A model generated the notes under the pieces. That model saw only the letters and a list, made by a program, of their open reading frames with translations. It had not been told where the DNA came from and did no database searches. From Thioalkalivibrio sp. (GTDB lineage: Bacteria; Pseudomonadota; Gammaproteobacteria; Ectothiorhodospirales; Ectothiorhodospiraceae): a stretch of 56,628 nt of DNA. Made by a program: the position numbers and the translations under genes. This document shows positions 3,242 to 20,349 of this stretch, piece after piece. The stretch spans positions 1-56,628 of the forward strand of contig NZ_REBW01000075.1 in NCBI RefSeq assembly GCF_007692535.1, given 5' to 3'. Positions within the stretch are counted from its first letter, which is position 1. Each line of letters opens with the position of its first letter.

Positions 3242-5422
3242 ATGGATACTGCCAAGCCCCTGTTTTCGCATCGCAAGTACTGGGCGGAGCGCTTTGGCGT
3301 GGCTCCGTTCCTGCCGATGAGCCGTGCCGAGATGGATCAGCTGGGGTGGGATTCCTGTGACGTGATCCTGGTCACTGGTGACGCCTACGTCGATCATCCC
3401 AGCTTCGGCATGGCGATCATCGGGCGCCTGCTGGAGGCACAGGGATTTCGTGTCGGCATCATCAGCCAGCCCGATTGGCAGTCCACGGGACCCTTTCAGG
3501 CGCTGGGCCGGCCCAACCTGTTCTTCGGCATCACCGCAGGGAACATGGATTCGATGGTCAACCGCTACACGTCGGATCGGCGGGTACGCCGGAACGACGC
3601 CTACACGCCCAACGACGAGGGCGGGCGGCGTCCAGACCGCGCCGTGATCGTCTATTCCCAGCGGGCACGCGAGGCTTATCCGGAGGTCCCGATCGTGATC
3701 GGCGGCATCGAGGCCAGCCTGCGGCGCATCGCTCACTATGACTACTGGTCCGATAAGGTACGCCGCTCCGTCCTCCTCGACTCCCGGGCGGATCTTCTCC
3801 TGTTCGGCAACGCCGAGCGCGCCCTGGTCGAGGTCACGCACCGGGTGGCGGCTGGCGAACATCCTCGCGAGATTCGGGACGTCCGCGGCACCGTTTTCCT
3901 GCGCGATGCGGTGCCGGCGGATAGGGTGGTGATCGATTCCACGGACATCGATGCGCCAGGAGCGGTGGACCCGCAGCCGGATCCCTACGCCATGGTCAGT
4001 GCCGCGGGTTGCGCGACCAAGGGAGCCGCGGAAGAGGGGCCCAGAGAAGAGGGGCCCAGAGTGGTGCGTCTGCAGCGCGATGTCCCGCGCGGTCACCCGC
4101 GCGACCGCACCGTGATCCGCCTGCCGGCCTACGCACAGGTGCGCGCCGATCCGGTGCTCTATGCCCATGCCTCGCGGGTGCTGCACCTGGAAACCAATCC
4201 GGGCAACGCGCGGGCCCTGGTGCAGCGCCATGGCGACAAGGAGGTCTGGCTGAACCCGCCGCCGATCCCGCTGACCACAGCCGAGATGGACGCGGTGTTC
4301 GATCTCCCCTACGCACGGTCGCCGCATCCCGCCTATGGCGATGCCCGGATACCGGCCTGGGAGATGATCCGGTTTTCGGTGAACATCATGCGCGGCTGCT
4401 TTGGCGGCTGTTCGTTCTGTTCCATCACCGAGCACGAAGGCCGCATCATCCAGAGCCGTTCGGAGGACTCCATCCTGCGCGAGGTGGAGGAGATCCGGGA
4501 CCGGGTCGAGGGCTTCACCGGCGTCATCTCCGACCTGGGCGGACCGACGGCCAACATGTACCGGCTGGCCTGCAAGGACCCGGAGATCGAGTCAAGTTGC
4601 CGCCGGCTGTCCTGTGTCTACCCGGGGATCTGCAAGAATCTGAACACCGATCACTCGGCACTGATCGGCCTGTACCGCAAGGCGCGGGCGCTGCCGGGGA
4701 TCAAAAAGGTGCTGATCGCGTCCGGACTGCGCTATGACCTGGCGGTGGAATCCCCCGAATACGTGCGCGAACTGGTGACCCACCACGTGGGGGGCTACTT
4801 GAAGATTGCGCCGGAACATACGGAAGAAGGCCCACTTTCCCGGATGATGAAGCCGGGCATGGGAACCTATGACCGCTTCAAGGCGATGTTCGATCGCTTC
4901 TCGAGGGAGGCTGGAAAGGAGCAGTACCTGATTCCCTATTTCATTGCCGCACACCCGGGAACGACCGACGAGGACATGCTGAACCTGGCGCTGTGGCTGA
5001 AGCGCAACGGGTTCCGCGCAGACCAGGTCCAGGCCTTCCTGCCCGGGCCGATGGCCCTCGCCACGGCCATGTGGCATACCGGACGCAACCCCCTGCGCGG
5101 GATTCGGCGTGAGGGGGGTGACAGGGTGCACTCGGCAAAGGGAATCCGCGCGCGGCGGCTGCACAAGGCCTTCCTGCGCTACCACGATGCGGAGAACTGG
5201 CCGCTGCTGCGCGAGGCCCTGCAGAGGATGGGCCGTGCCGACCTGATCGGTAACGGCAAACGGCATCTGGTCCCGAACTACCAGCCCGCAGGAACCGGTG
5301 TTCGTGGGGGCAAGCCGGTGGGCGTGGAGGGCCGGCGAGGGCGGTTCAAGACCCAGCATACGGGGCTGAAGGCCGCGGCTGCGCCGCGTAAGGCGGTTCG
5401 GAAGAGGCGCGGGGCGAGCTGA
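3242..5422 (+). CDS. ygiQ: YgiQ-family radical SAM protein
   Basis: A 726-aa member of the YgiQ family (UPF0313), close to the usual length of about 740. The N-terminal half contains a B12-binding-like Rossmann region ([23 protein letters not shown]), followed by the radical SAM core with the cluster motif C386-x3-C390-x2-C393 ([11 protein letters not shown]). The substrate is not known for the family. The C-terminal 40 residues are basic ([28 protein letters not shown]), which suggests nucleic-acid contact, an inference. A perfect 15-bp tandem duplication at 4031-4060 encodes EEGPR twice, between the two domains. The gene converges on mnmC with 7 bp between stops. Confidence 0.93.
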
Positions 5423-12241: not shown

Positions 12242-13669
12242 TCAGAAGGAGGACAGATCCGAGCGCGCACGCATGACCTTGCGCAGGGCGATCAGGTAGG
12301 CGGCGGTGCGGTAATCCATCGGTACGTCATTGCCTTCGATCTCGCGGGTCTCGCGTATTTCCTGGAAGGCGAGGCGCATCGAATCGTCCAGTGCGGAGCG
12401 TACCAGGTCGATTTCCTGTGTGCCGCGTGTCAATGACTCGCGCAGCCAATCCGGTACCGAGCGGTTGGTCATCATCTCGATCGCGGAGATCACGTGCTGC
12501 CCGCGCGTCGCCTCGTGCCGCCGGTGCAGCCGTCCCAGGCGGATATGGCCGATGTTGCGGATCCATTCGAAATACGAAACCACCACGCCGCCGGCGTTGA
12601 CGAACACGTCCGGCAGGATGGTAATGCCGCGCGAGACGAGGATCCGGTCCGCCTCCCAGGTGCAGGGCCCGTTGGCCGCCTCGACCACCAGGCGCGCCTG
12701 GATCCGCTCGGCATTGCCGGCGTGGATGACCCCCTCCAACGCGGCGGGAATCAGCACGTCGCAGTCGGCCTCGAGCATGCGCGCGCCATCGCGCTCGAAA
12801 CCCACACCGGGGAAGCCTTCGACGCCCCCGGTTCGCTGCATGTAGTCGTGCACGGCCGCGACATCCAGGCCGGTCTCGTCGAACAGGGCTCCGTCCCGCT
12901 CGATGATCGCGACGATGCGCGGCGCGTCCTTTTGCTGCAGCAGCGATGCGAGGTGGTAGCCGACATTGCCCAGCCCCTGGATGACGATCCGCTGATCGCC
13001 GAGCTTCCCCTCAAGCCCGGCCTCGCGCACCGCGTCGGGCTCGCTGAAGAAGGCATCCAGGGCATATTTCACGCCGCGACCGGTGGCCTCGAGCCGTCCG
13101 GGAATACCACCCAGTTCGAGCGGCTTGCCGGTGACGCAGGCGATATGGTTCAGGTCCTCGGGGTGCAGATCCTTGTAACTGTCCAGGATCCAGGCCATCT
13201 CCCGCTGCGATGTACCCATGTCGGGGGCGGGCACGTTTTCGGCCGGGCTGATGTACCCCCGCCGGATCAGTTCCCGGGCGAACCGGCGGGTGATCCGCTC
13301 GAGGCTGGCCTCGTCATATTGGCGGGGATCGATCCTGAGTCCGCCCTTGGACCCGCCGAAGGGGACGTCGAGCAGGGCACACTTGTAGGTCATCAGTGCG
13401 GCCAGGGCCTCGGCATGGTCCTGGTCCATGTCGGGAGAAAAGCGCAGCCCTCCCTTGACCGGCAGGCGATGGGCGGAGTGGACGGCACGCCAACCGGTGA
13501 AGACCTCGATGCGGTCGCCCAAACGAATCGGGAAGCTGACCTGGACCACGGAGGAACAGGCCTTCAGCGCATCGGCGGTACCCTCCGGTACGTCCAGCAG
13601 CGACATGGCGTGTTCGACCATGCTTGCCACGCTGTCGCGAAATCCTTGGTGTGGAACCGGGTCCGGCAT
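12242..13669 (-). CDS. Glu/Leu/Phe/Val dehydrogenase (glutamate dehydrogenase)
   Basis: A 475-aa cytoplasmic amino-acid dehydrogenase, most likely interconverting glutamate and 2-oxoglutarate plus ammonium. The substrate domain holds PVKGGLRFSPDM (K72), LMTYKCALLDVPFGGSKGG (K96, catalytic K108) and the PAPDMGT aspartate. The Rossmann domain has IQGLGNVGYH and an acidic IIERDG following the second strand, which hints at NAD+ rather than NADP+ preference. It is preceded by sthA on the same strand with a 42-bp gap, so electrons from GDH could be rebalanced by the transhydrogenase made from the same transcript. Exact amino-acid specificity is not certain from sequence. Confidence 0.92.
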   Translation of the reverse strand: MPDPVPHQGFRDSVASMVEHAMSLLDVPEGTADALKACSSVVQVSFPIRLGDRIEVFTGWRAVHSAHRLPVKGGLRFSPDMDQDHAEALAALMTYKCALLDVPFGGSKGGLRIDPRQYDEASLERITRRFARELIRRGYISPAENVPAPDMGTSQREMAWILDSYKDLHPEDLNHIACVTGKPLELGGIPGRLEATGRGVKYALDAFFSEPDAVREAGLEGKLGDQRIVIQGLGNVGYHLASLLQQKDAPRIVAIIERDGALFDETGLDVAAVHDYMQRTGGVEGFPGVGFERDGARMLEADCDVLIPAALEGVIHAGNAERIQARLVVEAANGPCTWEADRILVSRGITILPDVFVNAGGVVVSYFEWIRNIGHIRLGRLHRRHEATRGQHVISAIEMMTNRSVPDWLRESLTRGTQEIDLVRSALDDSMRLAFQEIRETREIEGNDVPMDYRTAAYLIALRKVMRARSDLSSF

Positions 13670-15351: not shown

Positions 15352-17793
15352 ATGATGCGCAGATTCCCCGCGCCATTCTTCTCGGTCCTGATGCTGGGAA
15401 TGGTTTCCCAGATCGCGCAGGTGGTCTTGCTGCGCGAGTTGCTGATGGTGTTCCACGGCAACGAACTGTCGATCGGCATCATTCTCTCCGCATGGATGGC
15501 CTGGGTTGGTGTCGGAAGCGCCCTTGGGGCGGCCGTCGCCGAACGGACGGGGCGGGTGCTGGCCGTCCTGATGCTGAACGCGGCGGCTCTGTTGCCCCTG
15601 CTGGTGGGTACGGTTCTGCTCATCCGTGGCCTGCGGGGATTTTTCGACGTGGTGCCGGGGGCGTACCTGTCGCTGCCGGACATCTTCGTTGCCAGTTTTG
15701 CCGTGATGGCGCCGGCCTGCATCCTGATCGGGATGCAGTTCGTGCTGTTGGCCAAGCTCTGGCGGCAAAGCGACAGGGCCGAGGACACCTCCGGCGCCGG
15801 CAAGACCTACATCGGCGAAGCCGTGGGCAACATCTTCGGGGGGATCATCTTCACGCTGGTCATGGTGCATTACCTCAACTCGTTCCAGTCGGTGGTGCTT
15901 GCCGGCATGCTGATGGGGGCGGCGGTGTTGTGGACCGGGCGCAGGGTCGCGGGATTTACCGAGCAGGTACGGGGGCGGACCAGGGCCGTACTGACGGGCC
16001 TGTTGATCGCGGGCGGAGGCTCGCTCGTGTTTCTCGGTCAGGTCGACGACTGGGCCCATGGAATCCAGTGGGGGCATCTGGCCCCGGATCATGAACTCGT
16101 CGCGACGCACCAATCGAAATACGGAAACATTGCCATCGCGCGCCGCGAGGACCAGTTCAGCTTCTTTCGCAGTGGCCACCTGATGTTTGCCGCCGCAGGA
16201 CACGACACCGCGGTTCCCCATTTCGAGGAACAGGAGGCGGCGGTCTTCGCGCACTTCGCCATGACCCAGCACGTCGACCCGAAGAGCGTCCTCCTGATTG
16301 GCGGTGGCTTGCGTGGCACCTTGGATGCCATCATCAGACACCCGGTCGACCGGGTCGACTACGTGGAACTGGATGAGGTGTTGACCAAGGCCGCCCGGGC
16401 CCATGTCTCGGAGGCCACGTTGGCGGCGTTGCGGGAACCGCGTGTACGGCTCGTTCACGCCGACGGACGCGTCTTCGTCAAGGAAGCGGATCAACACTAC
16501 GACATGGTGATCGTGGATGTTCCCGATCCCGCCACCGCGGTCTTGAACCGCTATTACACCCGGGAGTTTTTCGAACAGGTACGCAGGTTGCTCAATCCCG
16601 ACGGCGTATTCGTCATCGGCGCCGTTTCCACGGCGGGACTGCGCGGAACGGCCGTCGCCAATCGCAACGCGACCATCCAACATACGCTGGGCAGCGTCTT
16701 TGCCACGGTACTGCCGGTGGGCGAGCACTTCCTGATCTATTTCGCCTCCGATGCCGCGGATCAGATCTCCGCCGATCCTGCGTTGCTGCAACGGCGCTAT
16801 CTGGCGCGTGGCGTCGACACCGAGGCCTTTTCCCGCCACCACTTCCACCTCCTGCTGGAGGAATCGCAGTTGCGCCGGGTGAACTGGATTCTTCGCAACC
16901 ACGGGCGCACCGCAGACGCGCACCTCGCGGCACCTCCGTCAGCCCCGTTCCGGGTCGCTTCCGTTGCCCAGCAACAGGCGGGCGAGGGGGACCTGCCGCC
17001 GGTCAACGCCCGGTTTTTCATCAATTCCGATTTCAAGCCCATCGGGTACTTCTACACGCTGATGTTCTGGGGCGACCTGACTCGGGCGGGTCACGCCGAG
17101 ACCCTGAAGCGGTTGTTGCACGTCGAGCGATGGTGGATTCTTCCGGCAGTCGCCCTTGTCATCGCCCTGTCGCTTTTCCTTCGGATTCTGGGAGGCATCC
17201 GGCGCACGCGCCCGGACCGGCATTTTGCAGTGGTTTTTGCCGTTTTCACCACCGGTCTTTCCACCATGGCGCTGCAGATTGCGCTCCTGTTCTCGTTTCA
17301 GAGCATTTACGGCTTCATCTACGAAATGGTGGGCCTGATCGTTGCCATCTTCATGGCCGGCCTGGCGCTGGGTACGGCGCTGACCAACCGGTTCGTGAAG
17401 GACAAGGCCAACACGGACATCCTCGCCGGGGTCCAACTTTCGATTGCCATTCTTGCCGGCTTGATCGCCGTCGTGCTTCCCCACTCGGCGGCCATGGATT
17501 CGGCGACGATGGTGTTCCTGCTGTTTTCGCTGCTGACCTTTGTTTCAGGCTTGCTGAACGGCCTGGATTTTCCATTGGCGGCCGAGGCGTTCAGATCCAT
17601 GAATCGTCGCGCGGAGAAATCGGCGGGCATGGTGTACGGCGTGGAGTTGCTCGGGGCCTGTGTTGGGGCCGCCTTGGCAAGTGCCATTGTCGCGCCTATC
17701 ATTGGAATTGTGGCCTGTTGCCTTCTGGCGGCAACGGTCAACGCGACGGCGTTTGCAGTACTGATGGTATCCAGGAGGCCCCATGTACAGTAA
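15352..17793 (+). CDS. Polytopic membrane protein with embedded spermidine synthase-like domain
   Basis: About 813 aa. Around seven hydrophobic helices (residues 8-228), a soluble domain (about 230-590), then about seven more helices. The two membrane halves share a motif pattern (SQIAQVVLLRELLMVFHGNE versus TMALQIALLFSFQSIYGFIYE), typical of fused MFS-like/spermidine synthase proteins. The soluble domain has the Rossmann strand VLLIGGGLRGTLDAI near residue 312, an acidic YVELDE and VDVPDP with D389 and D392. True aminopropyltransferases have GGGDGG and a YHE-type substrate motif; here these are GGGLRG and FEEQEAAVF, so spermidine synthesis is doubtful. No clear ribosome-binding site defines the start; ATGs at 15352 and 15355 precede the first helix. 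The 3' end overlaps the next radical SAM gene by 11 bp, so the two products are probably made together. Confidence 0.85.
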   Translation: MMRRFPAPFFSVLMLGMVSQIAQVVLLRELLMVFHGNELSIGIILSAWMAWVGVGSALGAAVAERTGRVLAVLMLNAAALLPLLVGTVLLIRGLRGFFDVVPGAYLSLPDIFVASFAVMAPACILIGMQFVLLAKLWRQSDRAEDTSGAGKTYIGEAVGNIFGGIIFTLVMVHYLNSFQSVVLAGMLMGAAVLWTGRRVAGFTEQVRGRTRAVLTGLLIAGGGSLVFLGQVDDWAHGIQWGHLAPDHELVATHQSKYGNIAIARREDQFSFFRSGHLMFAAAGHDTAVPHFEEQEAAVFAHFAMTQHVDPKSVLLIGGGLRGTLDAIIRHPVDRVDYVELDEVLTKAARAHVSEATLAALREPRVRLVHADGRVFVKEADQHYDMVIVDVPDPATAVLNRYYTREFFEQVRRLLNPDGVFVIGAVSTAGLRGTAVANRNATIQHTLGSVFATVLPVGEHFLIYFASDAADQISADPALLQRRYLARGVDTEAFSRHHFHLLLEESQLRRVNWILRNHGRTADAHLAAPPSAPFRVASVAQQQAGEGDLPPVNARFFINSDFKPIGYFYTLMFWGDLTRAGHAETLKRLLHVERWWILPAVALVIALSLFLRILGGIRRTRPDRHFAVVFAVFTTGLSTMALQIALLFSFQSIYGFIYEMVGLIVAIFMAGLALGTALTNRFVKDKANTDILAGVQLSIAILAGLIAVVLPHSAAMDSATMVFLLFSLLTFVSGLLNGLDFPLAAEAFRSMNRRAEKSAGMVYGVELLGACVGAALASAIVAPIIGIVACCLLAATVNATAFAVLMVSRRPHVQ

Positions 17794-18940
17794 CGATGGT
17801 ACTGGACGGGATCTGGCCAAGAGGAAACTGTTGAAAGCCGGTTTCGGCGGGTTGTGTGCATTGTGCCTTGCCGGGGTCGGGGGCCGGGCGATACGCACTC
17901 AGGCGAGCCCTGCCCCAAGGGGCCTGGTTCGGCCCAGACCCGGTAGATGGTTCAGGGAAGGGGCCGGGGGCCTGGTCCACTGTGAGCTGTGTCCCTGGGA
18001 GTGTGTGCTGGAGTCCGGCGAAACAGCGCGTTGCCGTGTGCGGAGCAACCAGGGTGGAATCGGGCATACGCTCGCGTACGGCAATCCTGTTCTGGTCCAG
18101 GAGGATCCGGTCGAACGCCTGCCGTTCTTTCACGTCTTGCCCTCCAGCAGAACGCTTTCCGTCTCGACCGCCGGGTGCAACCTCGCCTGCAAGTTCTGCG
18201 AGGTATGGGATATGGCATTGGTCGATCCGCACGAGGTGCATGCCTATGACATGCCGCCTGCCACCGTCATCGACCACGCCACGGCGGCCCATCTGAAGTC
18301 GGTCAGCTATGCCTTCGGCGAGCCGGTCGTGTTCTATGAATACATGTTCGAAACGGCGGAATTGGCCCGGGACGCGGGCCTCCTCAACCTGTTGCATACA
18401 GCCGGCTACATCCAGCCCGCTCCGCTGAAGGAACTGGCCGCCAGGATCGATGCGGCGAATGTCGACCTGAAGGGATTCGACGCCGCGTTCTACAGGGATA
18501 TCTGTGGCGGAGAGCTGGCCCCGGTGCTGGAGTCCCTGGTGTCGCTGAAACGGGCCGGGGTGCACCTGGAGATCACCAACATCCTGATACCCACGCTGAA
18601 TGATGATATCGGCAGCATCCGGCGCATGTGCGCCTGGATAAGGGACGAGCTCGGAGCGGATGTCCCGCTGCATTTTGCCCGGTTCTATCCACTGTACCGG
18701 CTTGCGAACCTGCCGCAGACGCCCGTCTCATCGCTCGACAGGGCGAGGGAGACGGCGCTGGAGGAAGGGCTGAGATATGTCTACGTCTCCAGGGTCACGG
18801 GTCATGCCGGCGAGAACACCTACTGCCCGAATTGCGCGGAGATCGTGATCGGGCGCGTAGGGTTCATTATCGACGAGGTGAATCTTAGCGGCGGCCGATG
18901 TTCGCATTGCGGGGAAGCCATTCCCGGCCGTTGGGCTTGA
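17783..18940 (+). CDS. AmrS-type (AmmeMemoRadiSam) radical SAM protein with N-terminal signal-like segment
   Basis: A 385-aa radical SAM protein. Order of parts: an N-terminal basic stretch and hydrophobic segment (KRKLLKAGFGGLCALCLAG, residues 13-31), a cysteine cluster C67-x2-C70-x3-C74 with C84, the cluster motif C132-x3-C136-x2-C139, and a C-terminal CxxC...CxxC with the ending CSHCGEAIPGRW characteristic of the AmrS family. AmrS enzymes are usually cytoplasmic and encoded with Memo and AMMECR1 genes, neither of which is in this window. KRKLLK is a weak Tat-like variant of RRxFLK; a membrane anchor is the other reading. GGAGG sits 4 bases before the ATG. The gene overlaps the membrane synthase gene and its stop is 1 bp from the stop of the converging PflX-like gene. 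Confidence 0.88.
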   Translation: MYSNDGTGRDLAKRKLLKAGFGGLCALCLAGVGGRAIRTQASPAPRGLVRPRPGRWFREGAGGLVHCELCPWECVLESGETARCRVRSNQGGIGHTLAYGNPVLVQEDPVERLPFFHVLPSSRTLSVSTAGCNLACKFCEVWDMALVDPHEVHAYDMPPATVIDHATAAHLKSVSYAFGEPVVFYEYMFETAELARDAGLLNLLHTAGYIQPAPLKELAARIDAANVDLKGFDAAFYRDICGGELAPVLESLVSLKRAGVHLEITNILIPTLNDDIGSIRRMCAWIRDELGADVPLHFARFYPLYRLANLPQTPVSSLDRARETALEEGLRYVYVSRVTGHAGENTYCPNCAEIVIGRVGFIIDEVNLSGGRCSHCGEAIPGRWA

Positions 18941-18941
18941 A

Positions 18942-20000
18942 TCACATCAGCCGGCGACGGTGTACCTCGGCCTGGGAAAGCGAACGCTCGTCGAGATTGC
19001 TCAAGCCAGCATCGTGGGCCCGTTCCATGGCCTCCAGGAATTCCTGCGAGGTGATCGCGCGGGCGATCGGTTCGTATTCGAAGGCGCGGTGTTCCACGCG
19101 ATACTGCGCCATGATGTTCACATAGGTGTCCTTGGGCAGGTTCGTCGCGATCCAGTCGACGAATTCCCGGGAACCGGCGACCCGGTTGGGCATCACGAGA
19201 TGACGAACCATCAGCCCGCGCAGGGCCACGCCGCGATCGTCGGTGACGACCCGGCCGACCTGCCGATGCATTTCCAGGATCGCCTGCTGGGCCATCTCCG
19301 GATAATCGCGTGCACCGGCGGTTGCGTAGAGCGCCGATTCGGCGCCGTCCATGAATTTGAGATCGGGGAGGTAGATATCCACGATGCCGTCGAGGAGCCT
19401 GATGTTCTCGACCAGCTCGTAACCGCCCGTGTTGTAGCAGATGGGCAACCTGAGCCCCTTTTCCGCGGCGATGAGAACGGCGTTGACGATGTTCGGCATC
19501 ACGTGAGTGGGTGTGACGACGTTGATGTTATGGCAGCCGCGTTCCTGCAGGTTCAGCATCATGTCGGCGAGATCGGCGTCACTGACCTCGCGGCCGAGTC
19601 CCGAATGAGCGATCGGCCAGTTCTGGCAGAACACGCAGCGCAGGTTGCAGTTGGAGAAGAAGATCGTGCCTGAGCCGCGTCGCCCGACCAGGGGCAGTTC
19701 CTCGCCGAAATGCGGCTGGTGGCTGTGGACCTTGACCCGGTCCGTGGCGTTGCAGAAACCCAGCTGACCGGCTCTGCGGTTGACCCCGCATCGGCGCGGG
19801 CATAGCTCGCAGTGCTCGAACCGACGGTACGCCTCCTCGGCCCGTTCAGCGAGTCTGCCCTCGGCGTGCAAGCCCGCGTACGCGGGCTGCCAGGAGCCCG
19901 GTGGGTGCTCGGCAGTGGTTGTCCGCGAACACGCACCGAGATACGCGGCACTTCCGGCCAGGGCCATCTGTTTGAGAAAGGTTCTGCGCGTCAGTGACAT
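18942..20000 (-). CDS. PflX-like (COG1313) radical SAM protein with Tat lipoprotein signal
   Basis: A 352-aa radical SAM protein. The N-terminus MSLTRRTFLKQMALAGSAAY carries a textbook twin-arginine motif (TRRTFLK), a hydrophobic segment and the lipobox LGAC with C24, predicting folded export and lipid anchoring. The core has C64-x2-C67-x3-C71 plus C83 and the radical SAM motif C118-x3-C122-x2-C125 (NCNLRCVFCQNW). The family is related to pyruvate formate-lyase activating enzymes, but the substrate is unknown. Export would be striking because SAM and flavodoxin-type reductants are cytoplasmic. GGGAG precedes the ATG and a promoter candidate lies at 60-87 bp upstream. It faces the AmrS-type gene tail to tail. 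Confidence 0.88.
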   Translation of the reverse strand: MSLTRRTFLKQMALAGSAAYLGACSRTTTAEHPPGSWQPAYAGLHAEGRLAERAEEAYRRFEHCELCPRRCGVNRRAGQLGFCNATDRVKVHSHQPHFGEELPLVGRRGSGTIFFSNCNLRCVFCQNWPIAHSGLGREVSDADLADMMLNLQERGCHNINVVTPTHVMPNIVNAVLIAAEKGLRLPICYNTGGYELVENIRLLDGIVDIYLPDLKFMDGAESALYATAGARDYPEMAQQAILEMHRQVGRVVTDDRGVALRGLMVRHLVMPNRVAGSREFVDWIATNLPKDTYVNIMAQYRVEHRAFEYEPIARAITSQEFLEAMERAHDAGLSNLDERSLSQAEVHRRRLM

Positions 20001-20087: not shown

Positions 20088-20349
20088 TCTAATGGAGGCT
20101 GTCTCCCGCAAGCTCCGCGCGCGCTCGCACGGGCGGGTGGCGGATGTGGCAGACTCCCGCTGGGCACAGCCGGCGTTCCTGTTGATCCCGGGCGCTTCCG
20201 GGCAGCTTCCGGCTACCGTCAACGGGCAGACTCTCCTGCTCCGGGTCCGCCTGCGACCAGCGCAGCAAAAGGCGCTCCCGCAGGTATCACGACTCGGCAC
20301 CCGGGAGCCAAGACGCTGCCGAACCACGAAAGAAGGTTGAACCAGCAGA
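20088..20349. other. Gene-free region between divergent radical SAM gene and dusA
   Basis: About 260 bp of GC-rich sequence with no credible gene. Open frames on both strands cross it but show no family resemblance and unusual residue composition. It must hold the dusA leader; an AAGG near 20333 lies about 15 bases before the first dusA ATG. I looked for riboswitch consensus boxes, including cobalamin, and did not find a convincing match. Confidence 0.5.

Follow-up and report, generated by a model that had tools for sequence, protein, structure and literature searches.

A conserved three-gene locus from Thioalkalivibrio as a candidate radical-SAM modification system at the outer face of the cytoplasmic membrane

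What would bring together, in one compact locus, a polytopic membrane protein with a spermidine-synthase-like domain and two radical S-adenosylmethionine (SAM) proteins that carry export-like N-termini? The question is raised by three genes in a 56,628-nucleotide stretch of Thioalkalivibrio sp. DNA (hereafter the window), which is contig C102 of a 3.1-Mb genome. We call the membrane protein gene P1, the AmrS-type gene P2 and the PflX-type gene P3. Our preferred answer, to which we give a probability of roughly 0.57, is that the three genes form one extracytoplasmic radical-SAM modification system in which P1 handles a SAM-type nucleoside outside the cytoplasm. The genes are arranged as follows, where Tat stands for twin-arginine translocation:

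15352 to 17793, forward strand: P1, an 813-aa polytopic protein (open reading frame and translation, start ATG at 15352)
17783 to 18940, forward strand: P2, an AmrS-type radical-SAM protein with a signal, 385 aa (TIGR04337 match)
17783 to 17793, forward strand: coding overlap of P1 and P2, 11 bp (open reading frame coordinates)
20000 to 18942, reverse strand: P3, a PflX-type radical-SAM protein and predicted Tat lipoprotein, 352 aa (ATG at 20000; Radical_SAM match)

P3 lies on the opposite strand, its stop codon 1 base from that of P2, and an upstream start of its open frame at 20327 is possible but not needed. An original prediction, made from the sequence alone, had described these genes, their overlap and their stop spacing, and every coordinate was borne out on rechecking.

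Is the arrangement a coincidence of one genome? A contig scan with an alignment of five close P1 sequences and two exact peptide patterns yielded 79 P1 loci labelled with 11 phyla, two loci being unassigned; four of them are also contigs of a genus sample (L043 = G014, L044 = G027, L046 = G017, L104 = G019). Conserved linkage in other genomes, on which the original prediction had staked itself, was found: in a profile search P2 followed P1 in 55 of the 57 loci with at least 600 bases beyond P1, and P3 was present in 45 of 49 loci with room. In a tblastn map P2 invariably comes behind P1 in the same orientation and P3 invariably faces the opposite way; P3 is displaced by 783 bp in L090 and by 2516 bp in L083. 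With starts as chosen, the coding sequences of P1 and P2 share bases in 41 of 54 loci (gaps from -55 to 169 bp), and a median of 21 bp lies between the stops of P2 and P3 (43 loci). Of the 30 genomes in the genus sample, 6 have P1, whole or truncated at the edge of a contig; P2 adjoins it in all six, on the contig with the C-terminal part of P1 in the case of G019, and P3 comes next in five, the contig of G017 ending there. Copies of P1 95% identical to that of the window are held by metagenome-assembled genomes (MAGs) labelled Thioalkalivibrio. Pairwise protein distances correlate between the genes (P1-P2 0.761, P1-P3 0.677, P2-P3 0.755; 41 loci, with L043, L044 and L068 dropped), and none of 2000 permutations was as high (maximum 0.235), the pattern that joint inheritance or joint transfer would produce. 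Since the gene order recurs across phyla, the cassette is far beyond chance.

The association extends beyond this clade. We examined an evenly drawn sample of 297 genomes from one phylum, that of the Syntrophobacteraceae genome G065 (locus L061), which is itself included; counts of P2 and P3 here are lower bounds taken from the matches listed. A P1 relative (E <= 1e-40) occurs in 103 of the 297. Matches to P2 that start within the first 12 model positions, and so include the signal region, were found in at least 79 genomes, and 74 of these 79 have P1, against 103 of 297 overall (Fisher p 2.8e-39 with kinship ignored, among the matches listed); the others are G133, G284, G300, G303 and G339. 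The co-occurrence search that the original prediction had proposed as a check thus came out in its favour. Of the 106 P1 places, at least 45 have a P2 no more than 8 kb away on their contig, and for 32 of these the match includes the signal region. Similarly, all 15 genomes with the strongest P3 matches, which begin at model position 1 or 3 and were delimited by an E-value gap from 8.9e-173 to 2.0e-140, have P1 among the matches listed; in 11 of these 15, P2 lies on the same contig at gaps of 18-371 bp, with five pairs convergent, five divergent and one tandem. Seven weaker P3 matches also begin within the first four model positions (G116, G154, G287, G269, G328, G098 and G383), and, read by eye, six of these genomes have P1 and G269 does not. 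Among the 20 best-scoring P1 loci of the phylum sample (L142-L161, hereafter the distant relatives), an AmrS-like gene is near 12, eight of which have signal-like N-termini; in L155 it stands together with a signal-bearing P3. The AmrS-like genes of L153, L156 and L160 have no signal, and that of L154, whose start is unsure, groups with them. No AmrS-like gene was found in the stretch read at the remaining eight of the 20, and no other gene cluster occurs in more than five. Outside the cassette clade, then, gene order varies and linkage stays.

What sets the two radical-SAM proteins apart is their N-termini, which in the window read:

17783 to 17908, forward strand: Tat-like segment of P2, KRKLLKA followed by a hydrophobic stretch (signal pattern scan)
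19929 to 20000, reverse strand: signal of P3, with RRTFLK, a hydrophobic stretch and an LGAC lipobox (signal pattern scan)

The pattern used asks for RR, KR or RK and then a hydrophobic stretch ahead of the radical-SAM motif, and it was applied to whole open frames so as to be independent of the start codon; its threshold was lowered after a first, stricter version had missed the P3 of the window. The P2 set of 55 comprises the window, one genus locus and 53 of the 79 P1 loci. A Tat-like N-terminus is present in 51 of 55 P2 and 41 of 44 P3 proteins (thresholds 1.0 and 0.8), or in 51 and 35 at the stricter threshold of 1.4; it is missing in the P2 of L038, L046, L059 and L060 (frame cut) and the P3 of L054, L058 and L085. 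Counts from chosen starts (53/55 and 42/44) are biased, starts before a Tat-like motif having been preferred. A lipobox or AxA follows in 45 of 55 P2 and 35 of 44 P3. The N-terminal segments that the original prediction saw on both enzymes are therefore real and conserved, absence from homologs having been named there as fatal, with the qualification that the P2 motif of the window is KR rather than RR. The window genome has 18 Radical_SAM matches. With the threshold at 1.0 or 0.8 the pattern is confined to P2 and P3 and absent from the other 16; at 1.4 P3 fails as well, which leaves P2 alone. Against the TIGR01409 model the window P3 scores 16.6 bits, just under the cut-off of 16.7. TatC, AdoMet decarboxylase, Memo and AMMECR1 were sought genome-wide in 41 P1-bearing genomes, namely the six genus members and 35 genomes behind the 79 loci, including those of L084 and L107, which have no P2 nearby, and L064 and L098, which have no P3 nearby. 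TatC is present in 39 of the 41, the window genome among them. These sequence features suggest that P2 and P3 may be functional Tat substrates.

Where, then, would the domain of P1 lie? The parts of the protein outside its motifs are:

15376 to 15948, forward strand: helices 1-6 of P1, residues 9-199 (AlphaFold2 (AF2) helices, loop charges)
15964 to 16023, forward strand: extra helix 7, residues 205-224, which would flip the domain outside (AF2 helix, loop charges)
16093 to 17121, forward strand: soluble spermidine-synthase-like domain, residues 248-590, predicted to be extracytoplasmic (PF01564, 3anx, topology)
17128 to 17202, forward strand: extra helix 8, residues 593-617 (AF2 helix, loop charges)
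17212 to 17769, forward strand: helices 9-14, residues 621-806 (AF2 helices)

The AF2 model, built from 58 sequences (mean predicted local distance difference test score, pLDDT, 87.8; predicted template modelling score 0.88), has 14 long helices outside the domain, in a plan of 6+1 helices, domain and 1+6 helices that resembles the major facilitator superfamily (MFS). Structure prediction had been suggested at the outset, and the model places the synthase-like domain between the two sets of helices. Taking the N-terminus as inside and leaving the domain itself out of the counts, the mean number of lysines plus arginines (K+R) over 58 rows is 1.33, 2.31, 3.72, 3.33, 4.33, 3.33, 2.45 and 1.78 in the predicted-inside loops and 1.0, 2.0, 0.1, 0.0, 0.34 and 0.0 in the predicted-outside loops; AF2 helix ends give the same pattern, also in the 20 distant relatives. 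The loop between helices 6 and 7 carries a mean K+R of 3.33 (58 rows), and with AF2 helix ends the contrast across helix 7 is clear (2.91 before, 0.5 after); the loop after helix 8 carries 4.33 (58 rows, first helix bounds). Because of these loop charges, and with the N-terminus inside, the domain that separates helix 7 from helix 8 is predicted to lie on the outer face.

Fold comparison of the AF2 model supports an MFS fold, with 6+6 helices besides the two extra ones: residues 1 to 812 match SLC45A4 (9ghz; Z score 18.3, root-mean-square deviation 4.6, 371 aligned). Nearly all of the 50 rows returned were synthases and SLC45A4 was the sole transporter, so the absence of other MFS chains is uninformative. 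SLC45A4 is described as a human MFS polyamine transporter whose insert between transmembrane helices 6 and 7 is cytoplasmic and carries a plug (PMC12507699). P1 shares with it the MFS arrangement and an insert between helix bundles; the difference is that the two extra helices of P1 would put an enzyme-like domain outside. P1 also passes the model for fused MFS/spermidine synthase proteins (NF037959; 48.0 bits, cut-off 40), being likewise built of MFS-like helices and a synthase-fold domain. From that family it is distinguished by a domain predicted to be outside by virtue of two extra helices, by the loss of the GGG[D/E] acid and by its tie to signal-bearing radical-SAM genes, the topology having been compared in the 20 distant relatives only. 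Four glutamates within the helices (E38, E156, E658 and E765) are invariant in all 58 relatives; among the distant relatives the first two are Glu in 20 of 20 and position 765 is Asp in 20 of 20. Such residues would suit a cationic cargo. With invariant acidic residues in the helices and a nucleoside-type domain outside, a cationic nucleoside such as SAM would be the most economical cargo, but transport by P1 is a guess that we hold to be less likely than not.

Does the domain act as an aminopropyltransferase, as the original prediction implied? PF01564 (Spermine_synth) matches residues 298-424 (E 1.7e-25), and the domain superimposes on spermidine synthase 3anx with a Z score of 27.6 (deviation 2.7, 280 aligned). 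Two motifs bear on this:

16300 to 16317, forward strand: altered motif GGGLRG, P1 residues 317-322, where synthases have GGG[D/E]G
16516 to 16530, forward strand: retained DxxDP motif, P1 residues 389-393 (cassette-clade alignment)

The roles of GGG[D/E], DxxDP and the neighbouring acids are familiar from spermidine synthases, in which the GGG[D/E] acid helps hold decarboxylated SAM. P1 has GGG-L-R where aligned spermidine synthases have GGG-E-G, and in 58 of 58 relatives the acid is replaced, by L, M, W, I or V, so the description of the domain as motif-altered was right. E339, D341, D371 and D389 are retained in 58 of 58 rows and D392 in 57. The cassette clade of P1 thus resembles spermidine synthase (SpeE; 3anx, 7xif) in its fold, its nucleoside-binding acids and DxxDP, and departs from it in the missing acid and in being embedded in a 14-helix protein. 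A possible further difference concerns the supply of substrate: AdoMet decarboxylase (PF02675) is present in 21 of the 41 genomes, including that of the window, and was not found in the other 20, about half of the P1-bearing genomes (PF02675 only; other decarboxylase classes were not searched). P1 also stays under every NCBIfam aminopropyltransferase equivalog cut-off (184.2 against 472, 110.4 against 260, 93.4 against 249.55). With the acid lost throughout and no PF02675 match in 20 of the 41 genomes, we doubt aminopropyltransferase activity; the domain is probably no aminopropyltransferase, and that part of the original prediction is not supported, even though the window genome has the decarboxylase.

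The same evidence bears on the idea that P1 is a polyamine synthase-exporter, transferring a group from decarboxylated SAM, with the radical-SAM genes as accessories. The synthase fold, the retained acids (D389, D392, E339, D341 and D371), the likeness of the transmembrane part to a polyamine transporter and the decarboxylase of the window genome speak for it. The lost GGG[D/E] acid, the cut-offs not reached, the loss of D389 in most distant relatives, the failure to find PF02675 in 20 of the 41 genomes although 39 of them yielded TatC, and another synthase-like gene in the window genome (C181) speak against it, and we regard it as improbable. The distant relatives keep the outward topology, yet in 14 of the 20 position 389 is Asn, which suggests a domain that binds rather than catalyses; in that group transfer may count for less than binding. 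PA4774 of Pseudomonas aeruginosa, considered as a membrane relative, was dropped, since it is given as a 349-aa thermospermine synthase (PMC11107197).

Is P2 then simply the AmrS of the AmmeMemoRadiSam system? Both radical-SAM proteins have the expected cluster motif:

18176 to 18199, forward strand: CxxxCxxC of P2, residues 132-139 (C132, C136 and C139 in 55 of 55 cassette rows)
19626 to 19649, reverse strand: CxxxCxxC of P3, residues 118-125 (C118, C122 and C125 invariant in 42 rows)

They match Radical_SAM (PF04055) with 56.7 and 48.8 bits, respectively. P2 resembles the AmmeMemoRadiSam enzymes (TIGR04337, with Memo PF01875 and AMMECR1 PF01871 as partners) in passing the TIGR04337 (AmmeMemoSam_rS) cut-off with 324.8 bits against 220 and in keeping the family cysteines: 11 are each kept in at least 54 of 55 rows, and the same cysteines are found in other AmrS. 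It differs in bearing a signal, in belonging to a separate clade and in having P1 and P3, not Memo and AMMECR1, as neighbours. In the P2 tree a branch with full support sets off all 55 cassette rows, and the eight signal-bearing distant rows fall with them, apart from six other AmrS; the tree comes from a quick search with long-branch warnings and a midpoint root. Positions 205, 214, 261 and 300 differ between the signal-bearing AmrS and the other six.

That Memo and AMMECR1 are not beside the cassette, as the original prediction had noted, is true. What it did not mention is a separate Memo/AMMECR1/AmrS set elsewhere in the genome: the two genes stand side by side on contig C246 (26715-27479 and 27589-28053), next to a second AmrS (L041) that scores 637.6 bits against TIGR04337 and has no Tat-like motif. 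P2 could accordingly be a spare AmrS working with Memo and AMMECR1 encoded elsewhere, a view helped by its TIGR04337 score and by the fact that the window genome, like each of the six genus members carrying P1, encodes both partners. The Memo/AMMECR1 locus, however, has its own and far better-scoring AmrS, P2 belongs to another clade with four differing sites, and the partners are not constant. Memo was not found in 12 of the 35 genomes of other lineages (12 of 41 overall), AMMECR1 was not found in 11 of 41, and neither was found in 8, although MAG incompleteness may explain some of these cases. On the side of its partners P2 thus parts from the AmmeMemoRadiSam system, Memo and AMMECR1 being neither adjacent nor found in every genome, and a spare AmrS is to us the least probable of the explanations considered. 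Two P2-like genes stand in tandem in six genomes of the phylum sample (G214:C6, G185:C42, G232:C91, G307:C13, G137:C12 and G099:C31).

P3 is closest in fold to pyruvate formate-lyase activase (AF2 model pLDDT 82.6; best PDB match 3c8f, E 1.3e-6) and differs from such PflX-type and activase proteins in its Tat-like lipoprotein signal. Both proteins miss the glycyl-radical activase cut-off (PFLA 231.75; P2 46.0, P3 15.2), and P3 reaches no curated NCBIfam equivalog cut-off. Its PflX name is one we adopt from the original prediction as an assumption; there was no PflX model among the library matches.

Put together, the system could work as follows. P2 and P3 would acquire their fold and their iron-sulfur clusters in the cytoplasm, leave it through the Tat pathway and remain on the outer face of the membrane that bounds it, where P3 would often be a lipoprotein. 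On the same face P1 would hold its altered spermidine-synthase-type nucleoside-binding domain, most likely supplying or handling a cationic SAM-type nucleoside outside by transport, binding or both, and the two enzymes would perform radical chemistry on an outer-face substrate. With the synthase-like domain of P1 predicted to face outward, none of the three catalytic-type domains would be in the cytoplasm. The three proteins may form a complex there, with SAM delivered by P1, and the system may use SAM-derived groups. The original view of a membrane-associated system acting at or across the inner membrane fits the predicted topology and can be sharpened to a synthase-like domain on the outer face. 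A more specific version is tentative and held with distinctly less confidence: P1 would be an MFS-type carrier of SAM or a close analogue, docking it outside for two Tat-exported radical-SAM enzymes that modify an outer-face substrate.

Several observations weigh against an extracytoplasmic system. To our knowledge, no source of SAM or of low-potential electrons exists outside the membrane. The true RR form occurs in only 37 of 55 P2 and 33 of 44 P3 (threshold 1.0); 10 of 55 P2 and 9 of 44 P3 have neither lipobox nor AxA, the window P2 has KR and no clear cleavage site, and TatC was not found in two of the 41 genomes (G066 and G083). On the side of P1, the contrast across helix 8 is modest (K+R 2.05 before and 3.57 after; 3.1 and 3.45 in the distant relatives), the predicted-outside loop 92-107 carries a mean K+R of 2.0, the match to SLC45A4 indicates an MFS arrangement and no substrate, and the distant relatives have Asn at position 389 in the proportion given above and Glu at 658 in only 3 of 20. 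The profile search, moreover, found no P2 despite room in L084 and L107, and no P3 despite room in L064, L084, L098 and L107.

A rival reading is that the two enzymes remain on the cytoplasmic side, their N-termini being mere tethers to the membrane or to P1, with an inner-face target, cytoplasmic SAM and flavodoxin or ferredoxin as reductant. SAM and low-potential reductants are indeed cytoplasmic, and a true RR is lacking from 18 of 55 P2, that of the window among them, and from 11 of 44 P3 (threshold 1.0). Under the positive-inside rule, however, positive residues before a hydrophobic stretch place the N-terminus in and the C-terminus out; the lipobox or AxA of most P2 and P3, the predicted outward domain of P1 and the TatC of 39 of 41 genomes likewise disagree with a cytoplasmic location. 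The start-independent signal count slightly lowers our confidence in the preferred answer and slightly raises that in an inner-face system, which we consider unlikely, though the most serious competitor to the extracytoplasmic reading. Functional Tat export, and with it an outer-face system, stays our preferred interpretation.

How has the cassette spread, and where is it found? P2-bearing tree rows come from 10 phyla, the sole Lentisphaerota locus (L084) having no P2. Planctomycetota fall inside a ten-row group of Thioalkalivibrio and other Gammaproteobacteria, and Trueperaceae inside Spirochaetota, which suggests transfer between phyla if the MAG labels are right. A plasmid search matched 48 records, none covering more than 80% of P1 and all below 60% identity. 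Two P1 loci, L054 and L109, occur in one Syntrophomonadaceae MAG, T1Sed10_93.

By isolate name, 64 of the 79 P1 loci come from Kulunda soda-lake assemblies. Six more (PLM2, LCM1 and DLM2) we take to be from Canadian soda-lake mats and two (CROMO) presumably from a serpentinite site; the remaining seven were not placed by habitat. The sample codes B1Sed10, T1Sed, CSSed10, CSSed11 and T3Sed10 appear in PMC6146748 (871 MAGs), and CSSed16 and CSBr16 in PMC6704655 (1032 MAGs, Cock Soda Lake). The 1903 MAGs of these two papers, set against 84,980 species, put the Kulunda background of the collection at no more than about 2.2%, an upper guess; the binomial comparison made with it ignores kinship. The enrichment holds for the closest P1 clade only, given that the peptide patterns derive from five close sequences, and P1 relatives are common in the phylum sample, as noted above.

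Besides the three genes and open frames overlying them, no listed cluster occurs in more than 10 of 78 loci. A gene of the glutamate-dehydrogenase family (Glu/Leu/Phe/Val; Pfam identity from the window and L053 members) is near the cassette in 10 loci: the window (12242-13669), its close copies L043 and L044, and the seven Syntrophomonadaceae loci L053, L054, L079, L085, L095, L108 and L109. An aldo/keto reductase cluster occurs in seven (L111:9459-10439, L057, L058, L072, L098, L100 and L105), and the L111 member, the only one checked against Pfam, carries TAT_signal. The P1 of L107 (7980-9611), on a Phycisphaerales chromosome, is only 543 aa long, has no P2 or P3 in the 17.5 kb covered and neighbours a methyltransferase/PQQ-repeat protein and a PEP-CTERM gene. 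A substitute partner sought at L107, L084 and L064 was not evident; L084 carries an AAA/DUF4143 gene near P1, and L064 a TilS gene. Another radical-SAM protein encoded in the window (3242-5422, 726 aa) differs in type, with the Pfam domains Radical_SAM_N and DUF3362, and has no Tat-like N-terminus.

Radical-SAM enzymes are treated as cytoplasmic, SAM and strong reductants being there. No description of an exported or periplasmic radical-SAM enzyme or cassette was found in open-access titles and abstracts, a search that leaves subscription journals and outside preprints uncovered; the single families are known, and their combination, the signals and the outward domain are not described in the open-access literature searched. 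A conserved module found in many phyla makes the cytoplasmic-only assumption testable. Among proteins automatically called "AmmeMemoRadiSam system radical SAM enzyme" there is at least one group whose partners, and probably whose compartment, are different, and "fused MFS/spermidine synthase" proteins need not make polyamines. The cassette clade is enriched in soda-lake genomes, which suggests a requirement specific to life under alkaline, anoxic conditions. If the more specific reading of P1 as a SAM carrier is true, radical-SAM chemistry would have a new compartment and bacteria a new route of SAM export, spread between phyla in alkaline anoxic habitats, and the system would be categorically new if export and chemistry outside the cytoplasm were shown.

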